Positions 21,309 to 42,155 of a stretch of DNA of 42,251 nt are shown here, in pieces. The notes below the pieces were generated by a model that was not told where the DNA came from, did not search any database, and saw nothing but the letters and a program-made list of their open reading frames with translations. The translations under genes and the position numbers were made by a program. Source of the stretch: Mariprofundaceae bacterium. Lineage in GTDB: Bacteria; Pseudomonadota; Zetaproteobacteria; Mariprofundales; Mariprofundaceae. The number at the start of each line of letters is the position of its first letter. Position 1 is the first letter of the stretch. The stretch lies in assembly GCA_030950585.1 (NCBI GenBank), contig JAUZRG010000019.1:1-42251 (forward strand). The letters are read 5' to 3'.

Positions 21309-23486
21309 ATGACGAATTATCAAAATGATCAGCCCATTACAGGCATGAGTAATGAGCCTGACCGATTAAACCGTGAAAGCTTTGCTCAACGTGTCGCTGA
21401 TATTCTCATGCTTGAGCCAGATGATGAATGTTTGACCATTTCTCTTGAGGCAGAGTGGGGGTATGGTAAAACATCCGTGATCAACCTTGTGGAGAAGTCC
21501 GCTTCAAACCGTGGAAACAAACCCATTATTGTTGAATACAACCCTTGGTTGGCGGGAAAAGCAGATGCTTTGATTCAAGATTTCTTGATTCAGTTTTCAT
21601 CCCAGCTGGATGTGGCCAAGAATCCCAAAGAAGGCCTGCGAGCAGCCAAGGAAATATTGGCATATTCACAATTGTTTAATGCCATGAAGTTCATGCCAAA
21701 TGTCGAACCTTGGGCCTCAACATTGAATAGCCTTTCAGGTGTGATTGGTGATGCCTCTAAAAAAATGGCTAAACTCAAAGATGTCGATGTTTTTCATCGT
21801 AAGAGCAATGTTAGAAGCGCATTAAATGACTTGGATCAGCCTATCATTGTTATTATTGATGATATTGATCGTTTGACACCCGATGAAGCTTTCCAAGTGA
21901 TTCGCTTGGTGAAAGTTGTGGCTGATTTTCCCGGTGTTTCTTTTCTATTGTCTTTTGACCCTGAGTATTTAGCAGGAGCTTTGGCGAATTATGGTATTAA
22001 AAAGGCAGAGCAGTATATTGATAAGGTTGTTCAATTGCGGATTCCATTGCCTGTGATTGCACCCAAAGACATGCAAAAACTCGCGAATATTGAATTGGCT
22101 AGCTTATCTGAAGACTCGTTGACTGATTTCTTTGCTGAAGATCAAAAGCGTTTAAGTTATGTTTATCATAAGCACCTGAAGTATTTGGTGCGCAGTCCGC
22201 GTGAGCTAAAGCGTATTTTTAATCATTTACGCTTTGTTTTATCTCGCATTGAAGGTGAAGTTTGCTTTACTGATTTATATTGTTTGGCGGTATTGGCAAT
22301 CAAAGCACAAGGTATTTATAAATCATTGAAAGAAGCCCCTGAAATGTATGTGGGGCGGAAATTTGATGAAAAAATGGTCTTTGAAAAAAGAGAAGAAGTG
22401 ATTAAACGCTATCGTGACACACGTGAAGCCATGCTTGAGAAGGTTGATAGAAGAAACCAAGAGCATGTGCGTTGCATTGTGTATGATTTATTTCCTCTGG
22501 TGGATAGTCAATTTTCGGCGGTTTATAGTGAAGACTATGATCGTTGCGGGCGTGTGGCATGTGAAAAACGTTTGTATACGGCATTGCATTATCAGGTGCC
22601 ATTGGGTTTTGCTTCAGATGTTGATATTATTTCTTTTATTAATGGTGAAACAGACCGAGAAGATTATTTACAAAGAGCCATTGACGAAGACTTTGTGGAG
22701 CGATTGCTGGAGCTTCTTCAGCAAAATTTGAATAAAATAAAAGCTTCGCATGTGATTAGTCTTTTAAATGCTGTGTATGAAGTATTCTTAGATTCTGAAT
22801 ACCTTGAATCCTTCGTTGGGGCTGTACAAGGACCCTTTGACTTTGATCCATTTAGGCAAATTGTGTGGCTAAGTGTGGGTTTAGTCGCCAAGCAAGATTA
22901 TAAAAAAGATGTCCTTTTTAAGCTGATTGAAAATCCAAAAAGCCTTGCTGTGAGTGCTGAACTCATTAAAATGCTGATGATTCAAAATGACGCTATTGCC
23001 ACAGATGACCCCAGTTTGAAAAAAGAAGTTTGGTTGTATGGCAAGGATTACAGTGACTTGGTTGATCAGTGGTGTACGTTGATGGTCAAGCATTTGCAAC
23101 ATCATGATTTAATTCATTTTTATGATGTTGCTGCGATCTATACAGTGTTGGTACAAGCAAGCCCTAAACGGGTTAAAAAATTATTTAATAGCTGGAGCAC
23201 AAGCCCAGAAGGTTTAAGCTGTATCGCAACATTGATTGCGCATAGTGGCGATGACAAAGAAGGGGCATATGCTCATATTCAAGCGGACGAGCTATCCGCC
23301 TTGATGACGTTCTCCCGTTTAAAATCATTTGCCGACAGCCAGTTAAGCCAAGAAGATGATCTCTCTCCGATGCTCAAAGCCGTTTATCTCAGTATAAGCA
23401 CAGGAAAAGCCTATTATCTTAGTGATGCTCGCTTGGTGATGCAGCAGACTATTGAGTCGGTGATCGAGCCGATGATTGAAGTTTAA
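21309..23486 (+). CDS. KAP family P-loop NTPase, 725 aa
   Basis: Sequence: Walker A EWGYGKTS near residue 48, an YNPWL motif near 77 typical of KAP NTPases, and Walker B IIVIIDDIDRL near 178. SFLLSFDPEYLAGAL follows near 215, and RSPRELKRIFN near 300 is sensor-like. The last 350 residues are helical and unrecognised. No clear membrane insertion is visible, so it looks soluble. Family knowledge: KAP NTPases are patchily distributed, often on mobile elements, and several act in phage defence. Context: it starts 36 bp after pfp with its own ACGAGG ribosome site and opens the accessory island; a DUF3024 gene follows on the same strand. Confidence 0.88.
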   Translation: MTNYQNDQPITGMSNEPDRLNRESFAQRVADILMLEPDDECLTISLEAEWGYGKTSVINLVEKSASNRGNKPIIVEYNPWLAGKADALIQDFLIQFSSQLDVAKNPKEGLRAAKEILAYSQLFNAMKFMPNVEPWASTLNSLSGVIGDASKKMAKLKDVDVFHRKSNVRSALNDLDQPIIVIIDDIDRLTPDEAFQVIRLVKVVADFPGVSFLLSFDPEYLAGALANYGIKKAEQYIDKVVQLRIPLPVIAPKDMQKLANIELASLSEDSLTDFFAEDQKRLSYVYHKHLKYLVRSPRELKRIFNHLRFVLSRIEGEVCFTDLYCLAVLAIKAQGIYKSLKEAPEMYVGRKFDEKMVFEKREEVIKRYRDTREAMLEKVDRRNQEHVRCIVYDLFPLVDSQFSAVYSEDYDRCGRVACEKRLYTALHYQVPLGFASDVDIISFINGETDREDYLQRAIDEDFVERLLELLQQNLNKIKASHVISLLNAVYEVFLDSEYLESFVGAVQGPFDFDPFRQIVWLSVGLVAKQDYKKDVLFKLIENPKSLAVSAELIKMLMIQNDAIATDDPSLKKEVWLYGKDYSDLVDQWCTLMVKHLQHHDLIHFYDVAAIYTVLVQASPKRVKKLFNSWSTSPEGLSCIATLIAHSGDDKEGAYAHIQADELSALMTFSRLKSFADSQLSQEDDLSPMLKAVYLSISTGKAYYLSDARLVMQQTIESVIEPMIEV

Positions 23487-26625: not shown

Positions 26626-26733
26626 ATGGTGTTGTTGAAAAAAGGTATGATCATTGCGATGGTTGATGCCCGCATGCTTAATCGAAGTTTGAATATCTTA
26701 AATCGTAAAGGTGAATCACGCTCATGGAAGTAA
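26626..26733 (+). CDS. Possible 35-aa leader ORF overlapping the PtuA-like gene
   Basis: An ATG-started frame (opening MVLLKKGMIIAMVDAR, basic end) closes 10 bases inside the PtuA-like gene, so that the start of that gene (ATGGAAGTAA) contains this stop. Its ribosome site is weak. It could be a translational leader, the last part of a lost upstream gene, or chance. Confidence 0.25.
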   Translation: MVLLKKGMIIAMVDARMLNRSLNILNRKGESRSWK

Positions 26734-28079
26734 AAAAGTTTCGTTTATCGAACGTTGGACGGTTTTCAGATCTTGAAATCCCGCTTGCACCCACGAAAGA
26801 CAAGACATCCAACATGACTGTTTTGGTCGGCAATAATGGTTCGGGGAAAACAACCTTGCTCCATGCTCTAGCAACATCGTTAAGCTGGTTTGTCGGCAGA
26901 GTCCGCTATGAGAAAGGTAGTGGAAGCCCTATTTCTGAAGATGTGATTAACAACCAAGCATCAACGGCAGTGATCGATATTGACGTATGGGATAAACGGG
27001 CACGTTTAGACGACTCCTTGTTTTCTTGGCATATCGCCAAGACGATAAAAGGCCATCAAAGCGAGGGTCGTAGTGCGTTAAGCGAGCTATCCGAGTTAGC
27101 AAATCACTACAAAGCTCAGATGTCGGCCAATGATGCGTCGTCCTTGCCTTTGCTGGCTTTTTACCCTGTGGAACGAAGCGTGATCGACATTCCGTTGAAG
27201 ATAAATAACCGCCATTCTTTTCAACAGATTGATGGTTATGATGACTCTCTGAATCGTGGTGTTGATTTTCGCCGTTTCTTTGAATGGTTTCGAGAACGAG
27301 AAGATACGGAAAACGAACAAGGTATTTCAAATGAAGTATTTGACATATTCAAAGAAAGGCTAGGAAATAATAATAAGGATATTTGGGAAATACTATCCAA
27401 GGTAAAAGATTCGTCCCTCGACCGCCAGTTAACCGCCGTCCGAACAGCCATTAGCACCTTTATGCCGGGATTTAACAACTTGCGTATTCGCAGGAAACCG
27501 CGTTTGCACATGTCCATTGATAAGCAGGGTGAAAGACTCAATGTGGCGCAGCTCTCACAGGGTGAAAAGTCATTGCTTGCACTTGTCGGTGATATTGCCA
27601 AACGCTTGGCGATGATGAATCCAGCCCTCGAAAACCCATTGCACGGCGATGGTATTGTGATGATTGATGAAGTGGATTTGCACTTACACCCCCAATGGCA
27701 GCGCACCTTGCTGGCGCGACTGAGCAACACCTTTCCTAACTGCCAGTTTGTGCTAACAACACACTCTCCGCTGGTCATTAGCGAGGCAAAAGATGTGCTG
27801 TGTTATGTGCTTAACGATGGTGAACTTTCAGTCATGGATGACACCTTTGGTTTGGATGCCAATCAGGTCTTGTCACAGGTGATGAATACGGATGTGCGCA
27901 ACACTGAAATCCAAACCCAATTGGATGATCTCATGGACGCGATGCAAGACAGAAACCTTCAGCATGCGAGAGAACTACTGTCACAGCTTAGGGAGTCTTT
28001 GCCTTCAGGCAATATCGAAATAACAAAAGCAGAGTTGCTGCTAAGACGCTTGGAGTTGCGCCTTGAGAAAAATCAGTAA
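26724..28079 (+). CDS. ABC-type ATPase, Septu PtuA-like
   Basis: Sequence: a soluble 451-aa ABC/SMC-class ATPase. Walker A VGNNGSGKTT lies near residue 35, the signature LSQGEKSLLAL near 275, Walker B GIVMIDEVDLHLHP near 309 and the H-loop LTTHSPLV near 342. An insertion of about 170 residues between Walker A and signature and a helical C-terminus complete it. Family knowledge: this layout occurs in AAA_15/AAA_21 ATPases such as PtuA, OLD and the retron-associated ATPases. Context: the next gene overlaps it by 17 bp and encodes an HNH protein of the PtuB/TIGR02646 type, the two-gene composition of the Septu phage-defence system. No reverse transcriptase gene is adjacent, so it is not a retron. 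The start has AAAGG about 12 bases upstream, slightly far. Confidence 0.85.
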   Translation: MEVKKFRLSNVGRFSDLEIPLAPTKDKTSNMTVLVGNNGSGKTTLLHALATSLSWFVGRVRYEKGSGSPISEDVINNQASTAVIDIDVWDKRARLDDSLFSWHIAKTIKGHQSEGRSALSELSELANHYKAQMSANDASSLPLLAFYPVERSVIDIPLKINNRHSFQQIDGYDDSLNRGVDFRRFFEWFREREDTENEQGISNEVFDIFKERLGNNNKDIWEILSKVKDSSLDRQLTAVRTAISTFMPGFNNLRIRRKPRLHMSIDKQGERLNVAQLSQGEKSLLALVGDIAKRLAMMNPALENPLHGDGIVMIDEVDLHLHPQWQRTLLARLSNTFPNCQFVLTTHSPLVISEAKDVLCYVLNDGELSVMDDTFGLDANQVLSQVMNTDVRNTEIQTQLDDLMDAMQDRNLQHARELLSQLRESLPSGNIEITKAELLLRRLELRLEKNQ

Positions 28080-28707
28080 AGGCTCTGAGCCAAAGCTCCT
28101 GACTGCTTGGAAAAAGGCAAACCCAACAGGAACCTATCAAGAGCTTTCTCACCAAGTCAGAAAACACGTGAGGCAAGTGAACATCGACGAACAATTTGGT
28201 CTCTGTGCCTATTGCTGCCAGCGCATTGATGCTTCTAATAGTATGAATGAGCACGTTGAAGCAAAAGCCATTGCACCCAATCGAGGCTTGGACTTTTCCA
28301 ATATCGTCGCTTCTTGTACCACACCCAATCAATGTGATAGGGCGCATCAATCCAAACCGCTTCCACTCACACCATTGATGGATGCATGTGAAACAGAACT
28401 CAAATTTTACCTTGCGGGTCGCGTCAAAGGTCTATCACCTCGTGCTTCAACATCCATCGACGTGCTGAACCTCAATAGTAAAAGACTTATAAACTGTAGG
28501 GAGCAAGCCGTGGATGCGTTGCTATACGGTGGTGGTTCAAATCCAGAAGAGATTGAGCTACTTGAAGATGAGCTGATTGAGATTTTATTAGAAGACTTCA
28601 AAGAGGTAGGCAAAGATCATCTTTTGGCTCCATATAGCCCAGTGTTGGTGAGTATTTTAGGTGGTATTAGAAAAAAATTAACTCCCGATAAAAAGCTACA
28701 GGAGTGA
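28063..28707 (+). CDS. HNH endonuclease, Septu PtuB-like
   Basis: A 214-aa protein with the retron/Septu-type HNH arrangement (TIGR02646-like). CAYCCQRI near residue 47 forms a zinc knuckle, NEHVEAKA near 61 holds the catalytic His, DFSNIVASC near 77 carries the Asn, and a further Cys in NQCDRAHQ follows. It begins at a TTG with GGAG 7 bases upstream and starts 17 bp before the stop of the PtuA-like gene, so translation is coupled. In Septu the ATPase and nuclease form one complex that cuts DNA during infection. The C-terminal half is acidic and helical. No homology search was possible, so the subtype is inferred. Confidence 0.83.
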   Translation: MRKISKGSEPKLLTAWKKANPTGTYQELSHQVRKHVRQVNIDEQFGLCAYCCQRIDASNSMNEHVEAKAIAPNRGLDFSNIVASCTTPNQCDRAHQSKPLPLTPLMDACETELKFYLAGRVKGLSPRASTSIDVLNLNSKRLINCREQAVDALLYGGGSNPEEIELLEDELIEILLEDFKEVGKDHLLAPYSPVLVSILGGIRKKLTPDKKLQE

Positions 28708-29579: not shown

Positions 29580-29676
29580 GTTTATACCTGTCGTGGCTCA
29601 TATTTATTCTTTTATGCTTTGGCACTTTATGATGCAAGATTGAAACGTTGATGCGTCATAAAGTGCCAAGCGTTTT

Positions 29677-30990
29677 TTATTGGCTTTGTTCTTCCCATGC
29701 TTTTAAAAAGGCTGTGAGAAAAAAGTTGTAAAAAATGCCATCTACTTTGATCATCATAAAACGCGCGATGAGTTTTCCGTGTTGGTCGATGCAATGCAGT
29801 GCGTAGTGCCGACTGTCGCATTGGCATAGGTAGCTCACGCTTATTTTTGAACAATCAATATGTAAGTGGAAATAATCGTTGCTAACATTTAGCCACTCAT
29901 GCTTTTGTTGTAGCTGTCTACCATAGACAAAACACTCTGTCGTCGCACCTGTTTCACTGCGTACCACAGCACGTATTTCACCCCATTTAATCATTGATTC
30001 TAAAATGTTATCGAAGTTTTGAATGGCAAGGCTTTGGAAACCTTCGCTGTGAGGGTTATGGCTGACAGCTTCTAAAATGCTGCCTAGTGGCATGTCAAAG
30101 TGCTTGGCTGCCCCATCAAGAGAAGCTTCAGGGTTTTGTTGCATCCAGTCACACACGCATTGCATCCAGCCATCTAAGCCCATGCTTAAAGATCGCCCTG
30201 CTTTTTCACCTTCGCGTGCTTGGCCTGTGAGATCCTCATACTTGTTCGCATAGCCACGCGGGGTAAGCATGATCCCTTCTTTGATGATGGTACTGCTATT
30301 GCCGATTAATACGGTGGTAAGCATACCAATATCACAGTCTGCCATATCTTTTAAGGTGGTCATTTCAACCTTTTGACGTTTGCGATAAGCGGACTTTACA
30401 ACAGCGACAGGGGTTTGAGGGTCACGGTGTCGCAATAGAATCTTTTGTGCTTCGACAATTTGCTGGGTGCGACGGCCACTTTTAGGGTTATAAAGGGCAA
30501 TGACAAAATCACTGCTTGCAGCCGCTTCGATGCGACGGTAAATCTTTGGCCAAGGTGTGAGTAAGTCTGAGAGTGACACAGCACAAAAGTCATGGGTGAG
30601 GGGCGCGCCAACCAAGGCCGCTGCCGCATTCAGTGCAGTGGTGCCGGGTACAACCTCAACTTTGATGGCATGTTCTGGTGTCCAACCATGCTGAAAAAGA
30701 ACTTCATAGGTGGGGCCTGCCATGCCATAGATACCCGCATCGCCTGAAGAAATAAGCGCGACCGTTTTACCTTGCTTAGCATGTTCCCATGCCTCCAGGC
30801 AGCGATCGACTTCTTCAGTCATGCCTTTGCGGATTATTTCTTTGTCGTCCAATAGGTGTTGCACGAGTTTGATGTAGGTTGAATAACCAATGACAGTATC
30901 GGCTGCTTCAATGGCTTCTAAGGCACGTAGACTCATGTGTTCGTGCGCACCTGGGCCAAAGCCGACGAGAAAAATTTTACCTTGTTGCAT
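29677..30990 (-). CDS. cobJ: Precorrin-3B C17-methyltransferase with HutX/ChuX-like C-terminal domain
   Basis: Residues 1 to about 255 are a cobalamin-pathway SAM methyltransferase. GPGAHEHMSLRA is at the start, SSGDAGIYGMAG near 80, VPGTTALNAAAALVGAPLTHDF near 115, and ALYNPKSGRR near 170 is diagnostic of CobJ/CbiH. The enzyme methylates C17 and contracts the corrin ring. From about 265 to the end is a second domain starting with a short helical segment, then WGEIRAVV and YFHLHIDCSKIS. This pattern resembles the heme-binding HutX/ChuX fold. Normal CobJ is about 250 aa, so this is a fusion. AAAGGA precedes the ATG at 30990; a GTG six bases earlier is less likely. No riboswitch is visible upstream. 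Confidence 0.9.
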   Translation of the reverse strand: MQQGKIFLVGFGPGAHEHMSLRALEAIEAADTVIGYSTYIKLVQHLLDDKEIIRKGMTEEVDRCLEAWEHAKQGKTVALISSGDAGIYGMAGPTYEVLFQHGWTPEHAIKVEVVPGTTALNAAAALVGAPLTHDFCAVSLSDLLTPWPKIYRRIEAAASSDFVIALYNPKSGRRTQQIVEAQKILLRHRDPQTPVAVVKSAYRKRQKVEMTTLKDMADCDIGMLTTVLIGNSSTIIKEGIMLTPRGYANKYEDLTGQAREGEKAGRSLSMGLDGWMQCVCDWMQQNPEASLDGAAKHFDMPLGSILEAVSHNPHSEGFQSLAIQNFDNILESMIKWGEIRAVVRSETGATTECFVYGRQLQQKHEWLNVSNDYFHLHIDCSKISVSYLCQCDSRHYALHCIDQHGKLIARFMMIKVDGIFYNFFLTAFLKAWEEQSQ

Positions 30991-40149: not shown

Positions 40150-40335
40150 GGTTACCTTGCGCCTTCACTTTGGGTGTACGGGAAGTTTGGTGAAAGTCCA
40201 ACACAGCCCCCGCTACTGTAAATCAGATGTGATGTTTCAAATGCCTTAAACAGCATGACCACTGCCAATAGGTGGGAAGGTTCAAACATCGACAGTTGAA
40301 GATAAGTCAGGAGACCGCCCCAATACTGATAAAAT
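40150..40335 (+). promoter_or_regulatory. Cobalamin riboswitch
   Basis: The leader has the ordered hallmarks: TTGGTGAAAGTCC, then GCCCCCGCTACTGTA, and a B12-box AAGTCAGGAGACCGCC at 40304-40319. It ends about 25 bp before the cobB start. Adenosylcobalamin binding should shut off the downstream cob genes. Confidence 0.9.
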
Positions 40336-40359
40336 TCCATGACCTCGGGGTGAGGGTTG

Positions 40360-41619
40360 ATGCCTATGCAATATAATTTTATGCTAGCTGGTACACAGTC
40401 TGGCTGTGGTAAGACCAGTGTATGCTTTGCTTTGCTGCAACAGCTGATGGGTTCGGGCTGTGATGTTCGGGCTTTCAAAGCAGGACCTGATTTTTTGGAT
40501 CCGATGTGGCATCAAGTGGCGACACAAAAAACATCTTACAATCTTGATACGCGCATGATGGGTGAAGCGATGGTGCAACATACCTTTGCTTTTCATGCTG
40601 CCAAGTGGAACATCATTGAAGGTGTGATGGGTTTATTCGATGGTGCCAAAGGGGTTGGTCAAGAAGGTTCAAGCTTAGACTTGGCACGTGTCTTATCCAT
40701 TCCCGTTCTTTTGGTGGTGGATGCGAAGGGCATGAGTGGTTCGATTGTCGCACTGGTCGCTGGTTTTTGTGCTTATGCAGCTCAGTCGGGTGTGATGATT
40801 CACGGCATTATTGCCAACCGTGTGGGTAGTATGCGCCATGTTGAGCTTTTATCCGAGATGCTCAATCAGCATGATTTGCCACCACTGGTGGGTTGGATGA
40901 AGAAGAATGCGCCGACATTGCCTGAACGGCATTTAGGTTTGCAACGCCCAGAAGAAGTGAGTATTCCCGATTTTTCAGATCATTTTTATATAGACCAAGC
41001 ACAGCTTATCAGCCAAGGCCGAGCGATGAGGTTAATGCCTGAACGTGCTCCTGATCAACATGTTCAAAAAACCATTGCGATTGCGCGTGATGCGGCCTTT
41101 TGTTTTATTTACCAAGCCAATTTGGACTGGTTGCAACAGCAAGGGTGGCAATTAAGTTTTTTCTCGCCTTTGGCAGGTGAAGCTGTGCCCGCTTCAGATA
41201 TGCTTTGGTTGCCCGGTGGTTACCCTGAGCTTTATGCCCAAACGTTATCCGAGTCTGCCACATGGGAATCTGTCTGTGAGGTGATTGAGGCTGATCAAGT
41301 CGTTTTGGCAGAATGCGGCGGCATGATGGTGTTGGGTCAAAGCTTACGCGACCAAGCAGGGCAAGTTTGGCCCATGGCGGGGTTGCTTCCTTTTGATGTT
41401 GAGATGCAAGATCGCTTGGTTTCTTTAGGTTATCGGCAACAAGCTAAGGGTGTGAAAGGGCATGAGTTTCATCATTCCAAACGGTTGATGGAAGTGGGTA
41501 TCCCACAGGCTTTTGCTTTAGAAGGAAGAGGAGATACTGGCTTGCGTTACCGATGTTTACGTGCATCGTATGTGCACTGGTATTTCCCAAGTACAGACAA
41601 TTTGGATTGGTTATTATGA
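40360..41619 (+). CDS. cobB: Cobyrinate a,c-diamide synthase (CobB/CbiA)
   Basis: Amidates the a and c side chains of the corrin ring using ATP and glutamine. The P-loop is GTQSGCGKTSV near residue 12, then FKAGPDFLDPMWHQ and the EGVMGLFDG motif near 85. A glutamine amidotransferase domain carries LPGGYPELYA and the catalytic Cys in AECGGMM near 325, with HEFHHS later. The 419-aa length is slightly shorter than usual (about 450) but motif-complete. The start is the ATG 6 bases after a GGTGA site; another ATG lies two codons on. The stop overlaps the cobO start (ATGA). Confidence 0.94.
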   Translation: MPMQYNFMLAGTQSGCGKTSVCFALLQQLMGSGCDVRAFKAGPDFLDPMWHQVATQKTSYNLDTRMMGEAMVQHTFAFHAAKWNIIEGVMGLFDGAKGVGQEGSSLDLARVLSIPVLLVVDAKGMSGSIVALVAGFCAYAAQSGVMIHGIIANRVGSMRHVELLSEMLNQHDLPPLVGWMKKNAPTLPERHLGLQRPEEVSIPDFSDHFYIDQAQLISQGRAMRLMPERAPDQHVQKTIAIARDAAFCFIYQANLDWLQQQGWQLSFFSPLAGEAVPASDMLWLPGGYPELYAQTLSESATWESVCEVIEADQVVLAECGGMMVLGQSLRDQAGQVWPMAGLLPFDVEMQDRLVSLGYRQQAKGVKGHEFHHSKRLMEVGIPQAFALEGRGDTGLRYRCLRASYVHWYFPSTDNLDWLL

Positions 41620-42155
41620 AAAAAAGAGAAAATAGACAAGGTGTGACCTTGGTTCATACTGGCGATGGCAAAGGCAAATCATCTTCGGCTTTTGGGGTGG
41701 TGTTTCGTGCTGCCGCTTGGGGCATGAAGGTATGCGTGATTCAATTTATCAAAGGTAAATGGAAAACGGGTGAGCAAAAAGCTGCGCAATCATTTGAAAA
41801 TATTGAATGGCATACGCTCGGCGATGGTTTTACGTGGGATACCAAAAATCCCGAACAAGATATTAAAACGAGCCGTGCTATCTGGGATCTGTGTAAAGAA
41901 AAAGTTCGTTCTCATGACTATGATGTGCTGGTTTTTGACGAAATTAATTATTGCAGTGGTTATGGCTGGATTTCTGGTGCAGAAATTGCCCAATTTATTG
42001 CTGAAGAAAAACCAAGCTGGATGCACCTGATTCTCACAGGCCGCAATGCTGCGCCAGAAGTGATTGATGTTGCCGATACGGTGACCGAGATGAAAATGAT
42101 CAAACATGCCTACAAAGAAAAGGGCATCAAGGCTCAACAAGGTATTGAATTTTAA
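41616..42155 (+). CDS. cobO: Cob(I)alamin/corrinoid adenosyltransferase (CobO/BtuR)
   Basis: Transfers the 5'-deoxyadenosyl group from ATP to reduced corrinoid cobalt. P-loop TGDGKGKSSSAFG near residue 15, then VCVIQFIKGKWKTGE and VLVFDEINYCSGYGW, with the closing TEMKMIKHAYKEKGIKAQQG. The length of 179 aa matches the CobO class. The ATG overlaps the TGA of cobB, so the frame extending upstream is not the real start. Confidence 0.95.
   Translation: MKKRENRQGVTLVHTGDGKGKSSSAFGVVFRAAAWGMKVCVIQFIKGKWKTGEQKAAQSFENIEWHTLGDGFTWDTKNPEQDIKTSRAIWDLCKEKVRSHDYDVLVFDEINYCSGYGWISGAEIAQFIAEEKPSWMHLILTGRNAAPEVIDVADTVTEMKMIKHAYKEKGIKAQQGIEF

Follow-up and report, generated by a model that had tools for sequence, protein, structure and literature searches.

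The cobJ/cbiH gene in a 42,251-nucleotide stretch of Mariprofundaceae DNA (hereafter the window; contig C101 of a 2.5 Mb source genome, that of a zetaproteobacterium of iron-oxidising type) encodes a protein which continues for about 190 residues past its CobJ/CbiH part. This locus raises the question of what the additional residues are, and what they may contribute to the ring-contracting enzyme that carries them. The initial annotation had estimated the surplus at about 170 residues and compared it with the heme-carrier HutX/ChuX fold. It had also suggested that such a domain could hold an unstable precorrin, or could link heme status to cobalamin synthesis.

Architecture of the fusion gene

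The protein is read from a single frame (Table 1) starting with an ATG at 30990, with AAGGA 5' to it, and terminating at 29677-29679. TIGR01466 aligns over residues 6-248 (profile positions 1-239) with 327.9 bits against a cut-off of 246.35, which places this part of the protein within the CobJ/CbiH family; the best PDB match of the methyltransferase domain is Thermus CobJ 2zvb (E 6.8e-82). The large C-terminal surplus of the initial annotation is thus borne out by an intact frame, and the motifs WGEI (residues 336-339) and HLHID (residues 375-379) are found where they had been noted. An annotation or frameshift artefact is ruled out by the intact fusion in tens of independent genomes and by the low dN/dS; the fusion of CobJ to the tail is real.

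Directly 3' of the cobJ stop, at 29590-29680 on the minus strand, lies a strong hairpin (-26.6 kcal/mol, z -5.6). It has no clear T tract and is a possible transcript end.

Table 1. Features of the cobJ/cbiH fusion gene and of the riboswitch-linked genes in the window
Feature	Position	Strand	Remarks
cobJ/cbiH fusion gene	29677..30990	(-)	single open frame, 437 aa + stop
C17-methyltransferase domain (precorrin-3B / cobalt-factor III; ring contraction), residues 1-242	30265..30990	(-)	TIGR01466 E 3.6e-98; PF00590 E 5e-38
Conserved linker TPRGYANKY..TG....GE..GRSLSMG, residues 243-271	30178..30264	(-)	near-invariant in zeta and gamma copies; also in 2zvb
Helical segment, residues 272-311	30058..30177	(-)	predicted helices 272-285, 291-298, 302-310; counterpart of HutX N-terminal helices
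ChuX/HutX/HemS-like beta domain and C-terminal helix, residues 316-437	29680..30045	(-)	PF05171/PF06228; Foldseek ChuX 6u9j E 1.9e-10
Trp-Leu-Asn, residues 366-368	29887..29895	(-)	aligned with HutX Tyr-Tyr-Asn, HemS Trp-Ile-Asn
Phe-His-Leu-His, residues 374-377	29860..29871	(-)	His377 aligned with conserved GH histidine of ChuX/HutX
Cobalamin riboswitch	40156-40337	(+)	RF00174, 74.4 bits
CobB/CbiA	40357-41619		just 3' of riboswitch
BtuR/CobO	41553-42155		after CobB/CbiA, behind riboswitch

Fold of the C-terminal tail

The Pfam scores of the single protein are marginal by themselves. In the full protein, PF05171 (HemS) matches residues 317-411 with 25.6 bits, above its cut-off of 24, and PF06228 (ChuX_HutX) matches residues 316-411 with 24.5 bits, 0.5 bit below its cut-off of 25; both profiles exceed their cut-offs in the isolated tail, where PF06228 reaches 26.4 bits. 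Four further fold tests were run, using the relatives, a reverse search, a profile-profile alignment and a structural model. All 18 zetaproteobacterial tails compared with PF06228 match it (best E 8.5e-12), and a profile of six tails retrieves stand-alone HutX and HemS genes from distant genomes with E values of 1e-6 to 1e-3. Profile-profile alignment of the fused tails against three HutX sequences extends over 148 columns (E 9e-8). The AlphaFold2 model of the tail alone (pLDDT 85.4, pTM 0.79) has ChuX 6u9j as its top PDB match in Foldseek (TM 0.76-0.79 for ChuX by target length), and ChuX, HutX, AGR_C_4470, PhuS, HemS and ChuS are among the next 26 PDB matches (E < 1e-3).

The fold proposed in the initial annotation is upheld by the sequence profiles, by their comparison with HutX profiles and by the predicted structure, and the assignment of the predicted tail structure to the ChuX/HutX fold is considered secure. 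The tail stands outside the HutX equivalog TIGR04108, scoring 20.5 bits against a curated cut-off of 110. No Pfam or NCBIfam match to a nitrite/sulfite-reductase-like Fe-S domain, which the initial annotation had named as a contrary outcome, was obtained in the tail, and a CbiH60-like Fe-S tail is thereby ruled out. The pTM of the full-length model (0.50) is too low to fix the relative orientation of the two domains.

Candidate ligand site

Gly337, Arg340, Arg344, Glu352, Leu367, Phe374, His375 and His377 are each present in at least 37 of 39 zeta- and gammaproteobacterial tails, with His377 retained in 38 and His375 in 37. Counting from the alignment, His377 corresponds to position 98 of 2ovi; in ChuX, His65 and His98 are reportedly the positions at which mutants were made to study heme binding, and His65 aligns with Arg344. 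The alignment also reveals that the TDVHQF histidine-ligand segment of HemS/PhuS is absent from the fused tail, and that Trp-Leu-Asn occupies the position of the HutX GYYN motif, the Tyr of which presumably ligates heme in HutX. With neither the histidine ligand of HemS nor the tyrosine motif of HutX in place, the label of heme carrier has not been adopted. The pattern of conservation makes a ligand pocket with altered chemistry likely in the main group of tails. The two tails from genomes G033 and G039 have neither of these histidines and are also without Arg344 and the last helix, while retaining most strands, and one gammaproteobacterial copy (L186) is also missing both histidines; the histidine loss in the G033/G039 side branch calls for caution against over-reading the pocket.

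Distribution, phylogeny and selection

Profile searches for the tail, covering Pseudomonadota only, detected it in 21 of 399 genomes, of which 19 are Zetaproteobacteria and two (G033 and G039, with degenerate copies) belong to another family, and in 20 of 369 sampled Gammaproteobacteria from 15 genera. Among Zetaproteobacteria, all CobJ proteins whose end is intact carry the fusion. The relatives of the source genome are named Mariprofundaceae, Ghiorsea and Zetaproteobacteria. This survey of CobJ in relatives establishes that the fusion recurs and is not a one-off. A fusion confined to Zetaproteobacteria is ruled out by the gammaproteobacterial copies and by a copy on a plasmid of Methylomonas sp. 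LL1. In a pattern scan of genome contigs only zetaproteobacterial or unclassified proteobacterial records were found among the matches listed, and no match to the fused domain was obtained in viral contigs.

Several betaproteobacterial CobJs (Ideonella, Methylibium) and those of G226 and G293 end with the linker and a helical stub, and no barrel was found by Pfam scan in the CobJ of Ideonella and Methylibium. A quick tree of the CobJ core, in which many inner forks are weak, unites 31 barrel-bearing and four stub proteins in a single clade (support 100) and places the stubs inside it (95). In this tree the fusion thus has one origin, and the topology fits one gain and one loss of the barrel, the loss having likely occurred once in betaproteobacteria. 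The fused domains likewise group together, to the exclusion of HutX and HemS (support 96).

The dN/dS ratio is about 0.07-0.18 for the tail and 0.03-0.14 for the CobJ part, values that indicate purifying selection on the tail. The tail in the window is unusually diverged, with about 33% identity to relatives vs 74% for the CobJ part, and its motif residues are intact. Two deviating copies were also recorded. The copy in G217 (C309:3910-4425) has one internal TAA within the fused domain, and may be a pseudogene or an assembly error. In genome G725, a single frame of 704 aa (L175) joins CobJ and the ChuX-like tail to a nitroreductase/BluB-like domain, the last recognised by eye.

Pathway and genomic context

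SUMT, CbiX, CbiF, CbiL, CbiET, CbiG and CbiD are present on other contigs of the source genome, where CbiC, identified by reading the sequence only, adjoins CbiD. All CobG matches in this genome are below the cut-off and lie in long frames resembling nitrite/sulfite reductases, and no CobF was recognised among its PF00590 matches (the L005 match being left out). With CbiD, CbiG and CbiX present, no CobG above the cut-off and no CobF recognised, the gene set is that of the cobalt-early (anaerobic) cobalamin pathway (PMC7242693). As the set is of the CbiD/CbiG/CbiX type without CobG above the cut-off, the fusion enzyme should function as CbiH and act on cobalt-factor III.

The gene order in relatives, partly read from sequence, is cbiF-cbiX-cbiC-cbiD-cbiET-cbiL-cbiG(N)-cbiG(C)/cobE-cobJ-ferredoxin. 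The last gene encodes a thioredoxin-like 2Fe-2S ferredoxin, which lies 3' of cobJ in most fusion loci and also where the barrel is absent; its counterpart in the source genome is on contig C8. Whereas relatives have their B12 genes in one operon, the source genome (G000) has them spread over at least six contigs (C8, C40, C75, C101, C172 and C180). No cobalamin riboswitch was found at cobJ.

CbiJ/CobK (PF02571 above the cut-off) was detected in none of the 41 fusion genomes (0/21 and 0/20), the source genome included. It is also missing from about 28 CobJ-bearing genomes without the tail, as counted from lists, stub-only ones among them. Since unfused and stub-only relatives share the gap, it is a property of the operon type. 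The barrel as a simple substitute for CbiJ is unsupported as a rule by these same relatives, and a connection between the missing CbiJ and the barrel is rated as possible from gene content. CbiJ/CobK, the enzyme that would reduce cobalt-precorrin-6A, is missing altogether from a large group of cobalt-early B12 operons in proteobacteria.

No second ChuX/HutX gene was found with PF06228 in the source genome or in the other zetaproteobacterial genomes searched, hence no heme-uptake context is seen. A heme-uptake role alongside a resident HutX is ruled out for the source genome, which has no other PF06228 gene.

Elsewhere in the window, PtuA (E 7.5e-164) and PtuB (E 2.2e-78), which make up an anti-phage pair of Septu-like type, are encoded by overlapping frames on the plus strand (26724-28707). 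A KAP-type P-loop protein, recognised by eye, is encoded at 21309-23486 (+) and has PifA as its best PADLOC match (E 3e-69).

Proposed function of the tail

The tail may serve as an in-cis module that holds a cobalt-corrinoid for anaerobic ring contraction, a tentative reading at somewhat less than even chance, which draws upon the sequence, the model and an analogy with the Fe-S tail of CbiH60. The ligand of the tail would be cobalt-factor III, on which the enzyme acts, or cobalt-precorrin-4, which it makes; the basic pair Arg340/Arg344 would face the acidic side chains of the corrinoid and the pair His375/His377 would face the cobalt. The oxygen-sensitive and scarce intermediate would be kept beside the methyltransferase site and then passed on. 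The proposal of the initial annotation that a precorrin is held comes close to this explanation in its holding part; as for the substrate, a cobalt-corrinoid of the anaerobic (cobalt-early) pathway is more likely than one of the precorrins made in the oxygen-dependent pathway.

The holding role is favoured by the anaerobic gene set, the single CobJ clade and the separate group of fused domains, the near-invariant His, Arg and Glu352 residues, the lack of a stand-alone PF06228 gene in the source genome and the other zetaproteobacterial genomes searched, the precedent of CbiH60, and the tetrapyrrole-binding fold family, in which ChuX, ChuS and HutX bind heme 1:1 (PMC10404700) and HutX and PhuS hand it over to a partner enzyme (PMC12670364). 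Counting against it, the barrel is dispensable in some hosts, as betaproteobacterial relatives without it show, both histidines are lost in G033/G039 and L186, the HemS and HutX ligand motifs are absent, and the orientation of the two domains is unfixed.

A purely structural tail, i.e. a dimerisation or docking module in which tetrapyrrole binding has been lost, is unlikely. CobJ and ChuX-type proteins both form oligomers, the tail evolves faster than the CobJ part, and the G033/G039 copies have kept most strands yet not the histidines and the last helix, all of which would suit such a module; however, Phe-His-x-His and the basic pair remain near-invariant from Zeta- to Gammaproteobacteria despite strong divergence elsewhere, which is the pattern of a functional site. 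Rather less probable is a redox tail, whereby the domain and the 2Fe-2S ferredoxin encoded just 3' of it in relatives would reduce cobalt-factor III before contraction or replace CbiJ. The absence of CbiJ from every fusion genome, the ferredoxin gene after cobJ in most fusion loci (on another contig in the source genome) and the Fe-S tail that CbiH60 is said to possess are in line with it, as is the NADH-dependent heme degradation reported in vitro for HemS-family proteins (PMC12670364). But stub-only betaproteobacteria and unfused relatives lack CbiJ too, so that its loss goes with the type of operon rather than with the barrel, the ferredoxin follows cobJ even without the barrel, and the domain has neither an Fe-S cysteine motif nor the central His-ligand segment of HemS. 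That the ChuX-fold tail could be a new corrin-ring reductase or electron-delivery domain, one that acts together with the neighbouring ferredoxin during ring contraction or else replaces CbiJ, is very doubtful on this sequence evidence; if true, it would explain how a whole class of B12 operons in proteobacteria manages without precorrin-6A reductase.

Very doubtful, too, is a heme sensor, in which heme bound by the domain would adjust corrin synthesis to the heme level. Relatives of the domain bind heme and some are regulatory, such as PhuS at prrF (PMC12670364), but retention of the known heme-ligand positions is incomplete, no heme-uptake context by PF06228 is seen, and the B12 synthesis genes of the window are already under a cobalamin riboswitch. 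The link between heme status and cobalamin synthesis suggested in the initial annotation is thus unsupported.

The instability of its intermediates has left anaerobic ring contraction poorly characterised. That the ring-contracting enzyme carries a widespread and conserved tail of tetrapyrrole-binding fold suggests a way in which these intermediates may be held in the cell, and the fusion offers a clear test of this as well as a possible engineering handle. Corrinoid binding by the tail, if true, would extend the heme-carrier fold to corrinoids.

Comparison with known systems

No description of the CobJ plus HutX/ChuX architecture was found in the open-access papers searched, and public databases name the fusion proteins simply 'precorrin-3B C(17)-methyltransferase'. 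Thermus thermophilus CobJ (2zvb) has the same methyltransferase domain and the linker TPRGYA.KY..T..A..GE..G.SL; it stops after the linker at 295 residues, the helical segment and the barrel being absent. CbiH60 of Bacillus (Priestia) megaterium is likewise a CbiH of the anaerobic pathway that is extended at its C-terminus by a long domain, also with a tetrapyrrole-protein fold. Its tail, said to have been described by Moore et al. in 2013, is reportedly nitrite/sulfite-reductase-like with a 4Fe-4S centre, whereas the tail of the present fusion is ChuX/HutX-like and has no Fe-S motif. HemS, ChuS and PhuS (PF05171) carry W.NV.D..FHLHL in their C-terminal half, as does the fused domain, but they consist of two repeats with a central His-ligand segment that the fused domain does not have. 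ChuX/HutX proteins (PF06228; 6u9j, 2ovi, 5exv) have in common with the fused domain the fold, which is predicted here, the N-terminal helices, the conserved Asn and the GH histidine. They are, however, free-standing proteins of heme-uptake operons, whereas the fused domain, with 12-16% identity and Trp-Leu in place of the Tyr motif, is linked to CobJ in B12 operons.
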